Assembly: GCA_022360675.1 (NCBI GenBank)
Contig: JAKSCJ010000011.1
Location: 1-40,725, forward strand
Source: Lysobacterales bacterium
GTDB lineage: Bacteria > Pseudomonadota > Gammaproteobacteria > Xanthomonadales > Wenzhouxiangellaceae
DNA length: 40,725 nt
Reading direction: 5' to 3'
The notes beneath the pieces are model-generated. The model made no database searches. It had not been told where the DNA came from and saw only the letters and a program-made list of their open reading frames with translations. Shown one piece after another: positions 3,034-9,917 of this stretch; positions within the stretch are counted from its first letter, which is position 1, and each line of letters starts with the position of its first letter. A program made the translations under genes and the position numbers.

Positions 3034-3103
3034 GATTGCCGAGGGGCGCTGCAGCGGATCACCGCGAGGCTCGTGCAATCACGCCAATGTTTCAACGGCG
3101 CCC
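3034..3103 (+). promoter_or_regulatory. SAH riboswitch (ahcY RNA motif)
   Basis: The sequence matches the S-adenosylhomocysteine riboswitch consensus: GAGGGGCGCTGC, then GAGGCTCG, then CAACGGCGCCC. P1 forms from GATTGC plus CGAG (3034-3043) with CTCG (3070-3073) and GCAATC (3075-3080), leaving one bulged base. An inner hairpin forms from GCGG (3054-3057) and CCGC (3062-3065). The pseudoknot pairs GGGCGC (3044-3049) with GCGCCC (3098-3103). The family is known to sit before ahcY and to raise expression when SAH is high. Its position in the metK-ahcY gap also argues that ahcY starts at 3132, not in the open frame running through the riboswitch. Confidence 0.93.
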
Positions 3104-3121
3104 ATTCGTTCACCCGAATGG
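3102..3121 (+). promoter_or_regulatory. Hairpin covering the ahcY ribosome binding site (expression platform)
   Basis: CCATTCG (3102-3108) pairs perfectly with CGAATGG (3115-3121). The last two bases of the 3' arm are the first two of the Shine-Dalgarno GGAG (3120-3123). The first two bases of the 5' arm (3102-3103) also belong to the riboswitch pseudoknot strand. Pseudoknot formation on SAH binding would therefore shorten this hairpin. The pairing is read directly; the switching mechanism is inference. Confidence 0.6.
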
Positions 3122-4783: not shown

Positions 4784-5665
4784 ATGGATACCACATTTAG
4801 TTTTGAAGTTTTTCCACCGCGCGACGAAGCCCAGAACCTGATTCTGGAATCGACCCTGGAAAAACTAGCCGCGCTACACCCCGCCTATATTTCGGTTACC
4901 TTCGGGGCCGGTGGCTCCACGCTTGATCGCACCCGCGAAACGGTACTAGATATCCAAAAACGCTTTGGTATCGATAGCGTTCCCCATCTTTCGTGCATGG
5001 CCAGCGAGGCCATTATTAATCAGTTGCTAGAAACCTATCGCCACGCCGGTGTTAAACGTTTGGTGGTGCTGCGCGGCGATCAGCCTGAAGGGGTACAACA
5101 TCCCGGCCCATTTCGTCACGCCAACGATTTAGTTCAGCATATTCGCCAACGTTTTGGCGATGCCTTTCATATTGAAGTGGCCTGCTATCCCGAATTTCAC
5201 CCCGAATCGATCTCGCCACAAAGTGAGTTAGATTTCTTCAAACAGAAGGTGGATGCCGGTGCCAATGGTGCCATTACGCAGTATTTCTTTAATACCGATA
5301 GCTACTTCCGTTATCTTGAAGACTGCCAACGCCTGGGCATCAATATTCCCATCATTCCGGGCATCATGCCCATCACCAACTACGAGCGCTTAGCCCGTTT
5401 CTCTGACTTATGCGGCGCTGAAATTCCCCAATGGATTCGCCGTCGCTTGATCGGTTATGGCGATGATGGCGCATCGATTCGTGCGTTTGGTGAAGAGGTG
5501 ATCACCCGCCTGTGCGAACAATTACTGCAAGGCGGCGCTCCGGGCCTGCACTTCTATACCCTGAATCGGGCCAACGCCACCTTGAAGATCTGGCGTAACT
5601 TAAGCCTTAGCCATAAAAAAAGCAGCTTTGTGCAAACCCTCACCAAGAGCCTACTGTTTTCTTAA
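4784..5665 (+). CDS. metF: 5,10-methylenetetrahydrofolate reductase MetF
   Basis: FAD-dependent reduction of methylene-THF to methyl-THF, the methyl donor for remethylating homocysteine to methionine. It has 293 residues, about the length of E. coli MetF. The N-terminus FSFEVFPPRDEA carries the catalytic Glu. TFGAGGSTLDRTRE, LRGDQPEG, DAGANGAITQYFFN and IPIIPGIMPITN follow in family order. ATG 4784 is preceded by GGGGAGG at 6 bases; an in-frame TTG at 4760 is rejected because that ribosome binding site would lie inside the reading frame. Next to metK and ahcY, it completes a methyl-cycle neighbourhood. A small hairpin with arms CCAAGC and GCTTGG lies upstream at 4676-4695; I see no SAM riboswitch or clear MetJ boxes. 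Confidence 0.96.
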   Translation: MDTTFSFEVFPPRDEAQNLILESTLEKLAALHPAYISVTFGAGGSTLDRTRETVLDIQKRFGIDSVPHLSCMASEAIINQLLETYRHAGVKRLVVLRGDQPEGVQHPGPFRHANDLVQHIRQRFGDAFHIEVACYPEFHPESISPQSELDFFKQKVDAGANGAITQYFFNTDSYFRYLEDCQRLGINIPIIPGIMPITNYERLARFSDLCGAEIPQWIRRRLIGYGDDGASIRAFGEEVITRLCEQLLQGGAPGLHFYTLNRANATLKIWRNLSLSHKKSSFVQTLTKSLLFS

Positions 5666-5732
5666 GCAAAAGCCATCTCGGTTCGTTGAGCACAAACAGC
5701 AGGCTCAGCACGCGCACAAGCAATAGCATTCA

Positions 5733-5765
5733 ACAACGGCACCCCAGTGGTGCCGTTGTGCGTTT
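5733..5765 (+). terminator. Probable terminator after metF
   Basis: Stem ACAACGGCACC with GGTGCCGTTGT (5733-5743 and 5749-5759), a 5-base loop, then GCGTTTTA. The stem is strong and the T-run short. Confidence 0.7.
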
Positions 5766-5804
5766 TAGGGAGCTTAAATATGGGGTCGGCACCCTTTTGA
5801 ATAC

Positions 5805-5855
5805 ATTTGCATACAAATAGATATATTTGACTGCAATAATATTTTTTGATATACA
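5805..5855 (+). promoter_or_regulatory. Promoter of the PspA/flotillin cluster
   Basis: TTGACT (5827-5832) and TATACA (5850-5855) are separated by exactly 17 bases in an AT-rich stretch, a good sigma-70-type match. Just upstream is the inverted repeat ATTTG-CATA-CAAAT (5805-5818), a possible operator for the RHH-like product of the first gene. Transcription would start near 5862, which excludes translation from an in-frame start at 5827. Confidence 0.5.
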
Positions 5856-5886
5856 TAAAGCACACAAGTTATTCGTTTGTAGTCCA

Positions 5887-6390
5887 ATGCCCGATAAAAC
5901 CACATCGCTCAGCGTTCGAGTTAGTGATGAAGACGCCGAATTTCTCGCCCGTTTAAGCGTGCCCGAAGCACGTAATCACAGCGATAAGCTCAGGCATATC
6001 ATCGCCCAGTCCAGGCAACGGCAAGCGGGTTTACACGATTACCCAGCCGCTCTGGAAATGATGCGCGAGTTATTCGATGCCGTGCAGCAACGCTTACGCA
6101 ATCAAGAGCGGCAACAAGAGGCACATTCGGAACTGTTGGCCCATTCCTTTGAATGGCTCAGCGATTTGGCCGCGTTTATGTTGTCGGGCACCGATCAAGA
6201 GGCCGACAGCGAGCAAGAAATTACTTTAGAAACACTAGAGGCCGGTGTGGCAGACCGGATGTTTCGTATGATGGATCAACTACTTAGGCTGGGTGTTACG
6301 CCCGAAAGCCCGTGCTACGATCCCGACATCATCAATCGTCATCTGCCCAAGGTATTGTCGTTAGCAAAGATTATTGAAAAGACCCGATAG
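5887..6390 (+). CDS. Uncharacterised protein with ribbon-helix-helix-like N-terminus
   Basis: A 167-residue protein whose family I do not recognise. The first 45 residues (TTSLSVRVSDEDAEFL, then HSDKLRHIIAQSR) look like a ribbon-helix-helix fold: a beta strand, a helix, then a helix opening with a Ser/Asp cap. The rest is helical, rich in Gln, Glu and Arg (QQRLRNQERQQEA), and probably a coiled coil or dimerisation domain. It lies 8 bases before the pspA-like gene, whose ribosome binding site overlaps this gene's TAG, so the two are likely co-transcribed. The start at 5887 lies downstream of the predicted promoter; its ribosome binding site is weak. Inference: an autoregulator or a partner of the PspA protein. 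Confidence 0.7.
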   Translation: MPDKTTSLSVRVSDEDAEFLARLSVPEARNHSDKLRHIIAQSRQRQAGLHDYPAALEMMRELFDAVQQRLRNQERQQEAHSELLAHSFEWLSDLAAFMLSGTDQEADSEQEITLETLEAGVADRMFRMMDQLLRLGVTPESPCYDPDIINRHLPKVLSLAKIIEKTR

Positions 6391-6398
6391 GAGGCGTT

Positions 6399-7064
6399 AT
6401 GAGCGAATCGTTCGCAAGTCGAGTTAGCCGTTTAGTCAGTGGTGGCTTCAATGCCATGATCGATGCCGTAGAAAACGCCTCGCCAGAAATCGTCATGGAG
6501 CAAGCCATTCGCGAGATGGACCAAGCCGTTGCCGATATCCGCAGCGAGCTAGGACAAGTGGTGGCTAACAAGCATCGCGCCAATAAAAAACTGTTAGAAG
6601 ACAACGATCGCCACGAGCAACTCTCGGCACAAATTAAAGTGGCCGTAGATCAAAAGCGCGACGATCTAGCCGCAGCCGCCATCAGTCGGCAAATGGATAT
6701 CGAGGCACAAATTCCCGTATTAGAAGCCGCGGTACTTGATGCTTCCGATAAAGAAAAGGAGCTGGAATCCTATATCAACGCACTTAAAGCCAAGCAACGC
6801 GATATGCGTGCCGAGCTTCAGCGTTATCAAAGCAGTAAAAAAGCCGAACAGAGCACGATTTCAACGAGCGCCAACAGCGGTAATGATCAGGCCGACAAAG
6901 CCACCCAGGCATTTGAGCGCGCCATGGGCCAGGCCACTAATCTACCCTCGGGCCTTCATCACGGCGGCGACGACGCCAAACTGGCCGAGCTGGAAAAACT
7001 GGCCCGCGATAACCGGGTACAAGAACGCTTAGCGGCCATTAAAACCCGCCACAAAGACAGCTAA
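6399..7064 (+). CDS. PspA/IM30 family protein
   Basis: A 221-residue phage-shock-protein-A-like coiled-coil protein. The family binds the inner leaflet of the stressed inner membrane and forms ESCRT-III-like assemblies. The pattern is typical: a short amphipathic N-terminus (FASRVSRLVSGGFNAMIDAVENASPEIVMEQAIREMDQAVADIR in the family layout), then a long helical region with heptads through about residue 145. A low-complexity linker (STISTSANSGNDQ) precedes the C-terminal helix, which ends RVQERLAAIKTRHKDS. AGGAGG at 6389-6394 gives an excellent ribosome binding site. With YqiJ and YqiK downstream it belongs to the YqiJK-associated branch rather than the classical pspABC operon; no pspB, pspC or pspF is nearby. 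Confidence 0.88.
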   Translation: MSESFASRVSRLVSGGFNAMIDAVENASPEIVMEQAIREMDQAVADIRSELGQVVANKHRANKKLLEDNDRHEQLSAQIKVAVDQKRDDLAAAAISRQMDIEAQIPVLEAAVLDASDKEKELESYINALKAKQRDMRAELQRYQSSKKAEQSTISTSANSGNDQADKATQAFERAMGQATNLPSGLHHGGDDAKLAELEKLARDNRVQERLAAIKTRHKDS

Positions 7065-7193
7065 ATTAATGGCGCAGAATGGTAATGGTGCAGAATGGGC
7101 GCTTTTAGAGACGCCTCAATGACACGGAGCATACCCAAACCAGTCCGCTTTTGAGATCATCCACCACACAATAACAATCACGGGGAGCACTGC

Positions 7194-7856
7194 ATGTGGC
7201 ATTTTCTGGGATTATCCAGTAACTGGCCTTTTTCCAGCGCGCTGGCAATCATGTTGATTTTTGCCCTCATCGAAGGGGTGAGCACGCTGATAGGCGCTGG
7301 CTTATCGCAGTTTGTCGATGCGCTCTTGCCCGATTTAGATGTGGACATGGATGCCGACTTCAGCGATCCATCAGCCACGGTTAAATTCCTCAGCTGGCTG
7401 CGCTTTGGCGAAGTACCCGCCATTGTTTGCTTTATTGTGTTTTTAACCGTGTTTGGTCTGTTAGGTTTGGCGTTTCAAGCCAGCATGCTGTCGATCCTCG
7501 GCACGCTGTTGCCGCCTTGGCTGGCTGCGGCTTTGGTGTTAGTGGTGACTTTGCCCGTAGTCAGCATCATGAACCGACTCATTGCCAAAATTATTCCCAA
7601 AGACGAAACCCAAGTGGTTTCAGCCAATAGCTTTGTCGGGCGCGTGGCCTACATTACTCTGGGCGAGGCCACTTTAGGCTCGCCCACTCAAGCCAAGGTG
7701 AAAGACCGCTACGGCCATACCCATTATGTGATGATCGAACCCGATCATAGCGATACCACCCTCAAACCCGGCGACGAATTACTCATCACCGAACATCACG
7801 GTAGTGTGTATCGCGCCATCGTCAATCCCAACCATTCATTAAGTGAAAATCATTAA
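7194..7856 (+). CDS. yqiJ: YqiJ family (NfeD-like, OB-fold) membrane protein
   Basis: A 220-residue inner-membrane protein of the DUF1449/YqiJ type. Several hydrophobic segments occupy roughly residues 14-38, 76-98 and 102-125. A C-terminal soluble domain of about 80 residues follows (NSFVGRVAYITLGEATLGSPTQAKV, then LKPGDELLITEHHGSVYRAI) and looks like the NfeD OB fold. NfeD-like proteins act as partners of flotillins and stomatins. The flotillin gene follows 234 bases downstream, the same order as E. coli yqiJ-yqiK. GGGGAG lies 6 bases before the ATG. Likely role: inner-membrane partner that helps organise the flotillin in microdomains. Confidence 0.88.
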   Translation: MWHFLGLSSNWPFSSALAIMLIFALIEGVSTLIGAGLSQFVDALLPDLDVDMDADFSDPSATVKFLSWLRFGEVPAIVCFIVFLTVFGLLGLAFQASMLSILGTLLPPWLAAALVLVVTLPVVSIMNRLIAKIIPKDETQVVSANSFVGRVAYITLGEATLGSPTQAKVKDRYGHTHYVMIEPDHSDTTLKPGDELLITEHHGSVYRAIVNPNHSLSENH

Positions 7857-8090
7857 TTTCATTCAATCGGGCCCGATTTCATCAAGCGGAAAAACCAACT
7901 TGCTTTAATCAAACCGACAAACGGTATCGATAGCCATCAACGGGTATCGATCACTTAAAAAAACGTGCTGCATACAGCACAACAAATACAACACCAGCAG
8001 CAACACTTAAACTTCTACGCTTAAAAAATAAAAAAACGTTCAACACAGTGCCGTCCCCCCGCGGTACGCCTGTGAATTCAAGGAGCCTGC
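7857..8090 (+). promoter_or_regulatory. yqiJ-yqiK intergenic region with direct repeat and hairpin
   Basis: It contains a 9-base direct repeat GGTATCGAT at 7923-7931 and 7943-7951, spaced almost two helical turns apart. A hairpin follows with arms GTGCTG (7965-7970) and CAGCAC (7975-7980). The rest is A-rich. The repeat could be an operator for a separate flotillin promoter; no clear -10/-35 pair was found. Confidence 0.3.
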
Positions 8091-9851
8091 ATGGACTTCA
8101 ACAATAGTTATTTGTACACCGCCGGTATTGTGGTGGTGGCCATATTTACCATTTTCATTATTTTTGCCCGCCTGTACTTGCGCGCGTCTAAGGAAGTATC
8201 GTTTGTGCGCACCGGCTTTGGCGGACAAAAAGTCATTGTGAACGGTGGTGCATTGGTGTTTCCGGTATTCCATGAAGTAATTCCGGTCAATATGAACACC
8301 TTACGCCTCGATGTGCGCCGTAACCGCGATCAAGCACTGATCACCCGCGACCGCATGCGGGTCGATGTGGCCGCCGAATTCTATGTGCGGGTGCAACCCA
8401 CGGGTGAGTCCATCGCCAATGCCGCGCAAACGCTGGGCCAAAAAACCATGGAACCCCAGTCGTTAAAAGACTTGGTGGAAGGTAAATTTGTCGATGCTCT
8501 GCGTTCGGTAGCCGCTGAAATGGCCATGGAAGAACTACACGAGCAACGCACGGCCTTTGTACAAAAAGTACAACAGGTGGTGACTGAAGACTTGCTGAAA
8601 AACGGTTTGGAATTAGAAACCGTATCGCTCACCGGTTTGGATCAAACCAGTAAAGAATTCTTCAATCCCGATAACGCCTTCGACGCCGAGGGTTTAACCA
8701 AGCTCACCGAAGCCATTGAAGCACGCCGCAAAACCCGCAACGATATCGAGCAAGATACCCAGGTGGAAATCGAACGTAAAAACCTGGGTGCGGTGCAGCA
8801 AACCTTAGAAATTCAACGCGAAGAAGAATACGCTCGCCTGCAACAAGAGCGCGAGGTAGAAACCCGCCGCGCCAGCCAAGAAGCCGAGATCGCCGCCCAA
8901 CGCGCCGAAAAACGTCGTGAGGCCGAACAAGCGCAAATCGCCGCCCAGCAGCATATCGACCAAACCCAGATCGAATCCCAACGCGCGGTGGAAGAACAGC
9001 GCATTTCTAAAGATCAACAACTGCGCGAACGCGAGATCGATAAAGAGCGCGCGGTGGAAACCGCCAATGTGGAACGTCAAAAGTCCATCGAGCTTACCGA
9101 GCAAGATCGCGCCATCGCTGTGGCCGAGAAATCCAAAGCGCAATCCTTAACGCAACGCGAGGCCGATTTAGCCAAGGCCGAAGCCGCCAAAGCGGCTGAA
9201 CAAGTGATCACCGCGCGTGAATCTGAAAAAGCCGAACGTGAAAAGTTAATCGAGCTGATTCAAGCGGCCAAAGAGGCCGAGCGCGAAATGATCGACACCA
9301 CCACCCAGGCCCGTGCCGAGAAACAAGCGGCCGAAGATCAAGCCGAAGCCATCCGCACCTTAGCCCAGGCCGATGCCGATAAAGAACGCATCGCAGCCCT
9401 GGCCCAAGCCGAGGCCGAAACCAAGCGCGCCGAAGGTGCTGCCGAACGCTACCGGGTGGATGCCGAAGGTCGCCATGCCTTGAATGAGGCGGCGAATCAA
9501 TTATCGGCGGATCAAATTGCCATGCAGATCAAGATGGCGGTGATTCAACAGCTGCCCGAAATTATCCGCGAAAGCGTGAAACCCATGGAGCATATCGACG
9601 GCATCAAGATCGTTCAGGTCGATGGCTTAAATGGTGGTGGCGTCGTGGCCAGCGATGGCAGCGTTGCCCAGGGCGAAGCGGGTTTGGCCGATCAAGTGGT
9701 AAACAGCGCATTGCGTTACAAAGCCCAAGCGCCGTTGGTGGAATCCATCCTCAATGAAGTGGGCCTTAGCGGTAAAGACTTAAACGGCCTCACCGGCGAT
9801 ATCGCAAGCTTAGATAGCAACGCCGACAGCAGCGATACCAACGACGCCTAA
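8091..9851 (+). CDS. yqiK: Flotillin family protein YqiK
   Basis: A 586-residue membrane-anchored scaffold of the flotillin (SPFH/band 7) family, associated with membrane microdomains and envelope stress. Residues 7-28 form a single N-terminal membrane segment (LYTAGIVVVAIFTIFIIF). The SPFH domain follows at about 30-210 (FVRTGFGGQKVIVNGGALVFPVFHEVIPV near its start). A very long coiled coil with many Glu-Ala repeats, the flotillin signature, runs from about 215 to 470. A C-terminal region with GIKIVQVDGLNGGG ends the protein. AAGGAG lies 7 bases before the ATG. It closes the cluster with the RHH-like, PspA-like and YqiJ genes, and a strong terminator follows 33 bases downstream. Confidence 0.94.
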   Translation: MDFNNSYLYTAGIVVVAIFTIFIIFARLYLRASKEVSFVRTGFGGQKVIVNGGALVFPVFHEVIPVNMNTLRLDVRRNRDQALITRDRMRVDVAAEFYVRVQPTGESIANAAQTLGQKTMEPQSLKDLVEGKFVDALRSVAAEMAMEELHEQRTAFVQKVQQVVTEDLLKNGLELETVSLTGLDQTSKEFFNPDNAFDAEGLTKLTEAIEARRKTRNDIEQDTQVEIERKNLGAVQQTLEIQREEEYARLQQEREVETRRASQEAEIAAQRAEKRREAEQAQIAAQQHIDQTQIESQRAVEEQRISKDQQLREREIDKERAVETANVERQKSIELTEQDRAIAVAEKSKAQSLTQREADLAKAEAAKAAEQVITARESEKAEREKLIELIQAAKEAEREMIDTTTQARAEKQAAEDQAEAIRTLAQADADKERIAALAQAEAETKRAEGAAERYRVDAEGRHALNEAANQLSADQIAMQIKMAVIQQLPEIIRESVKPMEHIDGIKIVQVDGLNGGGVVASDGSVAQGEAGLADQVVNSALRYKAQAPLVESILNEVGLSGKDLNGLTGDIASLDSNADSSDTNDA

Positions 9852-9883: not shown

Positions 9884-9917
9884 AAAAAAGCGGCTCTATT
9901 TTAGAGCCGCTTTTTTT
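9884..9917. terminator. Bidirectional terminator between yqiK and the DUF1579 gene
   Basis: Stem AAAAAAGCGGCTCT with AGAGCCGCTTTTTT (9884-9897 and 9903-9916) and loop ATTTT. The A- and T-runs let it work on both strands, which suits the convergent genes. Confidence 0.93.

Follow-up and report, generated by a model that had tools for sequence, protein, structure and literature searches.

A predicted ribbon-helix-helix autorepressor and its candidate operator array at the head of a PspA-YqiJ-flotillin gene cluster

The window analyzed here is a 40,725-nucleotide stretch of DNA (contig JAKSCJ010000011.1, positions 1-40,725, forward strand) from the 3.9-Mb genome of a Lysobacterales bacterium (GCA_022360675.1), and it carries a cluster encoding, in order, a 167-residue protein, a PspA/IM30-family protein, a YqiJ-family membrane protein, and a YqiK-type flotillin. 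We conclude that the 167-residue protein is very probably a dedicated ribbon-helix-helix (RHH) autorepressor of its own operon, predicted to act at an array of 10-bp units that touches a σ70-like promoter. A sequence-only reading of the window had described a PspA-YqiJ-flotillin cluster led by an unrecognized protein, a description borne out by the open reading frames and by Pfam matches for the second, third, and fourth genes and none for the first. No significant family match was found for the 167-residue protein in Pfam or NCBIfam. The cluster and its control region contain the following features, with intergenic gaps of 8 (regulator to pspA), 129, and 234 nucleotides.

5800..5829, no strand assigned: predicted operator, three tandem 10-bp units AATACATTTG / CATACAAATA / GATATATTTG; the same array lies upstream of homologues
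5805..5818, no strand assigned: inverted repeat ATTTG-CATA-CAAAT, part of the array
5827..5832, + strand: probable –35 hexamer TTGACT, assigned by eye and overlapped by the third operator unit
5850..5855, + strand: probable –10 hexamer TATACA, assigned by eye, 17 bp after the –35 hexamer
5887..6390, + strand: predicted RHH-type autorepressor, 167 residues (1-50, RHH domain; 51-167, four-helix C-terminal domain)
6399..7064, + strand: PspA/IM30-family protein, 221 residues (Pfam PspA_IM30, 6.5e-17)
7194..7856, + strand: YqiJ-family membrane protein with YqiJ_N (1.5e-34) and an OB fold (YqiJ_OB, 5.8e-25), 220 residues
8091..9851, + strand: YqiK-type flotillin, 586 residues (Flot, 8.4e-41; Band_7, 1.6e-16)

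The modeled fold of the 167-residue protein supports, without proving, an RHH helix pair in the N-terminal 50 residues. The full-length AlphaFold2 monomer model (predicted local distance difference test score, pLDDT, 87.9) contained helices at residues 14-22 and 31-48, followed by four more at 52-76, 82-101, 114-137, and 148-166, and residues 1-50 modeled alone (pLDDT 87.7) gave helices at 14-22 and 31-49. This N-terminal model matched ParD2 (7b22; Z 5.1, root-mean-square deviation 2.3, 44 of 49 residues), ParD1 (8c24; Z 4.4), and ParD2 (7r5a; Z 4.4), and the full-length model matched, over its N-terminal residues, a chain of the MazE-mt1 complex (6kyt_C; Z 4.1) and a DNA-binding protein (1xrx_A; Z 3.3), both of which we take to be RHH proteins; all of these Z scores are below 8, a range in which the comparison tool warns that a match may mean no more than a common arrangement. 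The RHH-like start proposed from the sequence thus finds its closest counterparts in ParD-type RHH antitoxins. Arg11, Ser32, Lys34, and Arg36 in the RHH part, as well as Ser81 and Glu118 in the C-terminal part, were invariant in all 72 distinct family proteins, a set in which identical proteins were counted once and two fragments of one broken copy (L016 and L100, genome G017) were removed. By RHH anatomy, Arg11 would point toward the DNA from the strand, and Ser32 would begin the second helix. Weak profile matches among 59 aligned proteins were to DUF6290 (6 proteins, E 0.019), NikR (5 proteins, E 0.022), and MatP_C (1 protein). A search of PDB sequences with the family profile returned no protein named as RHH among the matches listed, and a PHROGs search with the RHH part gave nothing useful.

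The rest of the protein had been called a coiled-coil tail; it is helical in the model, but four helices describe it better. For these helices, Foldseek comparison against the PDB and viral models found nothing at E <1, the C-terminal part not having been modeled alone, and the VIA structure comparison gave middling helical matches, none of them clear. Redox or metal sensing through Cys143, a residue invariant in the first 15 proteins, was dropped as a candidate when the larger set proved to lack this invariance.

The inverted repeat at 5805-5818 noted in the sequence-only reading is present and belongs to a longer array of 10-bp period at 5800-5829, with units resembling TACAWWTGTA. The promoter postulated there can also be read by eye as probably σ70-like (TTGACT/TATACA, 17-bp spacing); a consensus promoter scanner that requires T as the last base of the second hexamer omits this 5827-5855 promoter. 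Binding of the array by the RHH-type protein is strongly predicted from several lines of comparison. First, the window contained four overlapping matches to the array pattern compared to 0.25 expected, and none of 100 shuffles reached four. Second, relatives from other classes and phyla have similar arrays upstream. When the window's own 20-mer was used as the sole probe, the best match in the whole locus fell within the 150 bp before the homologue in 31 of 60 loci (60 of the 61 described below, identical proteins counted once), with 14 ties and 15 misses, compared to ~0.9 expected. Third, 43 of 72 homologue upstream regions scored 14 or more against an 18-bp consensus compared to ~1.2 per set in dinucleotide shuffles, and only 2 of 41 upstream regions from clusters without the protein did so (Fisher p 1.6e-9), although these scores are partly circular, as the consensus was written after viewing the same upstream regions; neither the window-only probe nor the genome-wide searches share this circularity. 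The clusters without the protein included six of eight headed by a long PspA variant. Fourth, spacings between units peaked at 10 bp (38 pairs, 0.8 expected), 11 bp (15 pairs, 0.6 expected), and 20 bp (13 pairs, 0.7 expected), and the repeat continued beyond the selected 18 bp, with T in 74% and G in 77% of cases at positions –5 and –4. The 11-bp register alone was found in 10 upstream regions. Finally, a TTGACA-like –35 hexamer was within reach in 17 of the 43 high-scoring arrays, and 16 of these 17 arrays overlapped the –35 to –10 span.

The operator appears to be dedicated to this promoter, local rather than genome-wide. With one mismatch allowed, this promoter was the single place in the 3.9-Mb genome where the array pattern occurred. 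In 28 other genomes, hand-picked among homologue carriers, a search allowing three mismatches found 24 sites, assigned by hand, of which 17 were just upstream of a homologue and 7 were elsewhere, compared to 30 for the reversed control pattern; 12 of the 28 genomes had no site at this threshold. A genome-wide regulon was rejected, as searches of the window's own genome and the 28 others gave no evidence for one.

Several of these results weigh against a dedicated RHH autorepressor. In addition to the low Z scores and the partly circular consensus, the AlphaFold2 monomer model contains no β strand, as would be anticipated for a ribbon made solely upon dimerization, and none of the RHH families of Pfam or NCBIfam matched the 167-residue family significantly. 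Moreover, 29 of 72 upstream regions scored below 14, with three (L025, L031, and L035) having no convincing array, and no –35 hexamer passed the filter in 26 of the 43 high-scoring arrays.

The family keeps close company with this cluster over a wide taxonomic range. Among 61 genomes searched, counting that of the window, 16 encoded a member of the 167-residue protein family, and a 15-row profile then recovered 61 loci from the species collection, distributed among Gamma-, Alpha-, Beta-, and Zetaproteobacteria, Desulfobacterota, Verrucomicrobia, and two metagenome-assembled genomes (MAGs) labeled Bdellovibrionales. PspA, YqiJ, and YqiK directly followed the RHH-type gene on the same strand in 53 of the 61 loci; of the others, three run off the contig before the cluster is complete (L023, L026, and L029), two lack PspA but have YqiJ and YqiK (L017 and L018), and three have none of the partners (L050, L054, and L057). 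A plasmid search found one relative, on Vitreoscilla filiformis plasmid pVF1, and no near DNA match; this plasmid has the complete four-gene set with its order unchanged, the first gene annotated as a hypothetical protein, together with a similar array that, by eye, follows TTGACA. Viral contigs yielded no relative of the protein. Several phyla, and at least one plasmid, have the four-gene cassette that includes its own regulator.

Counts within the order and phylum identify the closest partners. Among 299 genomes of the order, the RHH-type protein was found in 23 and YqiJ in 32, and all 23 were within the 32 (Fisher 2e-27, taking the two 299-genome searches as one sample, with the same genome handles among the rows listed). 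The 32 YqiJ clusters comprised 19 with the protein and PspA, 4 with the protein but without PspA, 9 with neither, and none with PspA alone (Fisher 2.5e-5). Within this order, PspA never joins YqiJ without the RHH-type protein, and the RHH-type protein can occur without PspA. The co-occurrence with the cluster anticipated by the sequence-only reading therefore held, but the strictest partner is YqiJ/YqiK rather than PspA, since PspA is absent from 4 of the 23 protein-bearing clusters; the RHH-type protein follows YqiJ/YqiK more strictly than it follows PspA. The protein was rarer in a phylum-wide sample (4 of 299 genomes), and 37 YqiJ loci examined in the phylum comprised 3 with the protein and a short PspA, 8 with a longer PspA (~385 residues) without the protein, and 26 with neither. 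By these counts, the RHH-type protein is not universal to YqiJ clusters but goes with one type. Mirror-tree correlations over 49 loci were high for all pairs (0.79-0.90) and so single out no partner beyond RHH-YqiJ at 0.90. The suggestion that the first protein was a new regulator or adaptor has been narrowed, with regulator far better supported than adaptor. Of the three points on which the suggestion was to be refuted, the two open to computation, an RHH-type fold and co-occurrence with the cluster, came out in its favor, and DNA binding, the third, is strongly predicted from the conserved operator array.

Three kinds of unusual locus stand beside these. The lone homologues of L050, L054, and L057 (6501-7019, 6501-7013, and 6501-7019, respectively), each with an operator array, sit between an OsmC-like gene and a convergent coq7 gene; their genomes, those of Pleionea sediminis and two MAGs, have no YqiJ. 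In L016 (G017:C14), the regulator is broken into pieces matching its N-terminal and C-terminal parts beside an intact-looking PspA, reflecting assembly error or decay. In L192-L197 (e.g., L194:5006-6166 and L193:2231-3385), the ~385-residue PspA heads YqiJ-YqiK clusters without the RHH-type protein; it has an extra N-terminal domain of ~150 residues before the PspA part, with no significant family, which may resemble the N-terminus of IS605 OrfB/TnpB (HTH_OrfB_IS605, a very weak match at E 0.23 in one of four).

The observations support an RHH-like domain, a conserved gene order, and a conserved operator with its promoter position. We infer that the protein binds the array, that binding represses, and that the four genes form one transcript. 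In the mechanism we propose, the N-terminal RHH domain would dimerize, and several dimers would line up along the 10-bp units at 5800-5829, each a helical turn from the next, binding cooperatively along one face of the helix with one dimer per unit. This arrangement is suggested by the 10-bp period together with known RHH systems. Bound dimers would block the σ70-like promoter, keeping the regulator, PspA, YqiJ, and flotillin at low levels. The four-helix C-terminal domain would take up a signal, membrane damage perceived directly or via a partner, or would set the oligomeric state; a change in this domain would then release the array and allow the membrane-repair proteins to be made. Neither PspA nor YqiJ is likely to be the sole sensor, because the protein is kept without PspA and, in three genomes, without YqiJ. 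More tentatively, and with the balance tilted against it, the protein could be a complete membrane-stress switch, independent of σ54 and contained in a single cytoplasmic polypeptide. It would repress from an RHH array and sense stress through its own four-helix domain, by binding lipid, a metabolite, or membrane-located assemblies of flotillin or PspA. It would have spread over at least three phyla as part of a portable four-gene cassette and be independent enough to persist with its operator once the other cassette genes are lost.

The same operator evidence bears on the possibility that the array-bound protein is an activator of the operon, or has both activating and repressing roles. The array of the window is upstream of the –35 hexamer, merely touching it, where an activator could sit, and the arrays of some relatives are 70-100 bp from the start codon. 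The placement of 16 of 17 arrays with an assignable –35 across the –35 to –10 span is the usual one for a repressor, however, and most RHH proteins known to regulate their own small operons act as repressors, making activation improbable, though the most credible of the alternatives to autorepression.

A structural adaptor that binds PspA or flotillin, with the array belonging to another DNA-binding protein, is less probable still. In its favor, pspA or yqiJ is almost always the next gene, conservation extends to the C-terminal domain with its invariant Ser81 and Glu118, and the 10-bp unit resembles TACANNTGTA, given as the operator core of CopR-CopY repressors in the available text of PMC7253601. 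Against an adaptor, the array follows the gene even where the genome lacks YqiJ and the locus lacks PspA and YqiK, 39 of 41 YqiJ clusters without the gene score below threshold, and a local array is ill-suited to a general regulator. A role as adaptor only was rejected as the main reading because the three lone homologues, whose genomes have no YqiJ, are still accompanied by the operator. Control of the operon by the genome's PspF from a σ54 promoter, as in Escherichia coli, with the first gene incidental, is very unlikely and was rejected: a PspF at G000:C327 scores above the curated cut-off (531.5 vs 443.55 bits), but no –24/–12 pattern within one mismatch is present on the + strand at 5500-5887, and this PspF is on the contig of another pspA-pspC pair ~17 kb away.

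The autorepressor would serve one of three PspA genes in this genome, the others being a classical PspA accompanied by PspC (L222), on the same contig as PspF, and a PspA of the YjfI-YjfJ type. That PspF, PspB, and PspC are missing, as had been claimed, is true of the cluster itself by ORFs and Pfam, but elsewhere the genome has PspF and PspC beside another PspA. The cluster shares a PspA-family effector with the classical PspF-PspA-PspBC response, which depends on σ54, and differs in lacking PspF, PspB, PspC, and a σ54 site, with the classical system separate in the same genome. The three systems appear to be differently controlled, which suggests that they answer to different stresses. A PspA tree, descriptive only, had very long branches to the two other PspAs. 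The YjfI-YjfJ-type cluster (G000:C360, L224) also encodes DUF2170, ion channel, DUF2491, DUF350, and DUF1190 proteins and resembles the third group of Ravi et al. 2024 as set out in the available text (PMC11237479).

The association of PspA, flotillin, and YqiJ is itself already published, as the available portions of two papers establish (PMC11237479; PMC9239133). The CesT/Tir-PspA-flotillin-YqiJ operons likewise combine PspA, a protein with transmembrane, band-7, and flotillin regions, and YqiJ/YuaF, but the core of that class is a CesT/Tir-PspA dyad joined by an AAA+ ATPase, whereas the lead gene here is RHH-type; in the available text (Ravi et al., 2024; PMC11237479), RHH transcription factors figure only in a Toastrack operon of actinobacteria and at the end of another operon, that of spermine synthase and DUF350. 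The 167-residue model is all-helical, with no sheet, and the protein has no match to DUF2170, a family that the genome's own YjfI (L224:3771-4208) matches at 3e-40. The CesT/Tir-type domain (YjfI/DUF2170-like) has an α+β fold, which the model of the lead protein lacks. The Psp network of Acidobacteriota (Popp et al., 2022; PMC9239133) likewise has flotillin and NfeD proteins as neighbors of PspA, and its PspA operons also encode DNA-binding proteins; the available text describes helix-turn-helix regulators in phylum-wide consensus neighborhoods and names neither an operator nor a regulator of RHH type. In the window, a flotillin-type SPFH gene adjoins a YqiJ/NfeD-type gene, the defining arrangement of SPFH2-NfeD (YqiK/YqiJ) operons. 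The yqiJ-yqiK and yuaF-yuaG operons likewise pair YqiJ with a YqiK-type flotillin, and the text of PMC2636767 on SPFH2-NfeD operons mentions neither PspA nor phage shock. A joint function of PspA and flotillin is supported by Bacillus subtilis, where, according to the available text of PMC8581546, an SPFH protein links PspA to the membrane.

CopG, MetJ, and Arc are RHH repressors that act on tandem, palindromic operators at their own promoters. The 167-residue protein shares with these repressors and ParD an RHH-like N-terminal domain and an operator of this kind but, unlike them, has a four-helix C-terminal domain without a clear match and is followed by a membrane-stress operon rather than a toxin, plasmid-copy, or metabolic partner. 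In titles and abstract openings of open-licence papers, no RHH regulator of a PspA-YqiJ-flotillin cluster was found. The protein represents a new regulator family whose fold type is known, in an operon whose kind is also known; the RHH family, the operator, and the controller role were not found in these literature searches. A defined regulator and operator make the control of PspA-flotillin operons outside the classical Psp response directly testable.

Two further features flank the cluster.

Before the cluster on G000:C246: metF (methylenetetrahydrofolate reductase), which precedes the four + strand genes
9890..9917, no strand assigned: terminator-like hairpin GCGGCTCTA-TTT-TAGAGCCGC with a T run, which ends the cluster; assigned by eye and not in the scanner list

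Farther upstream, an S-adenosylhomocysteine (SAH) riboswitch (Rfam RF01057, 47.8 bits) is at 3035-3110, at the start of an S-adenosylhomocysteinase-like ORF, with metF next.

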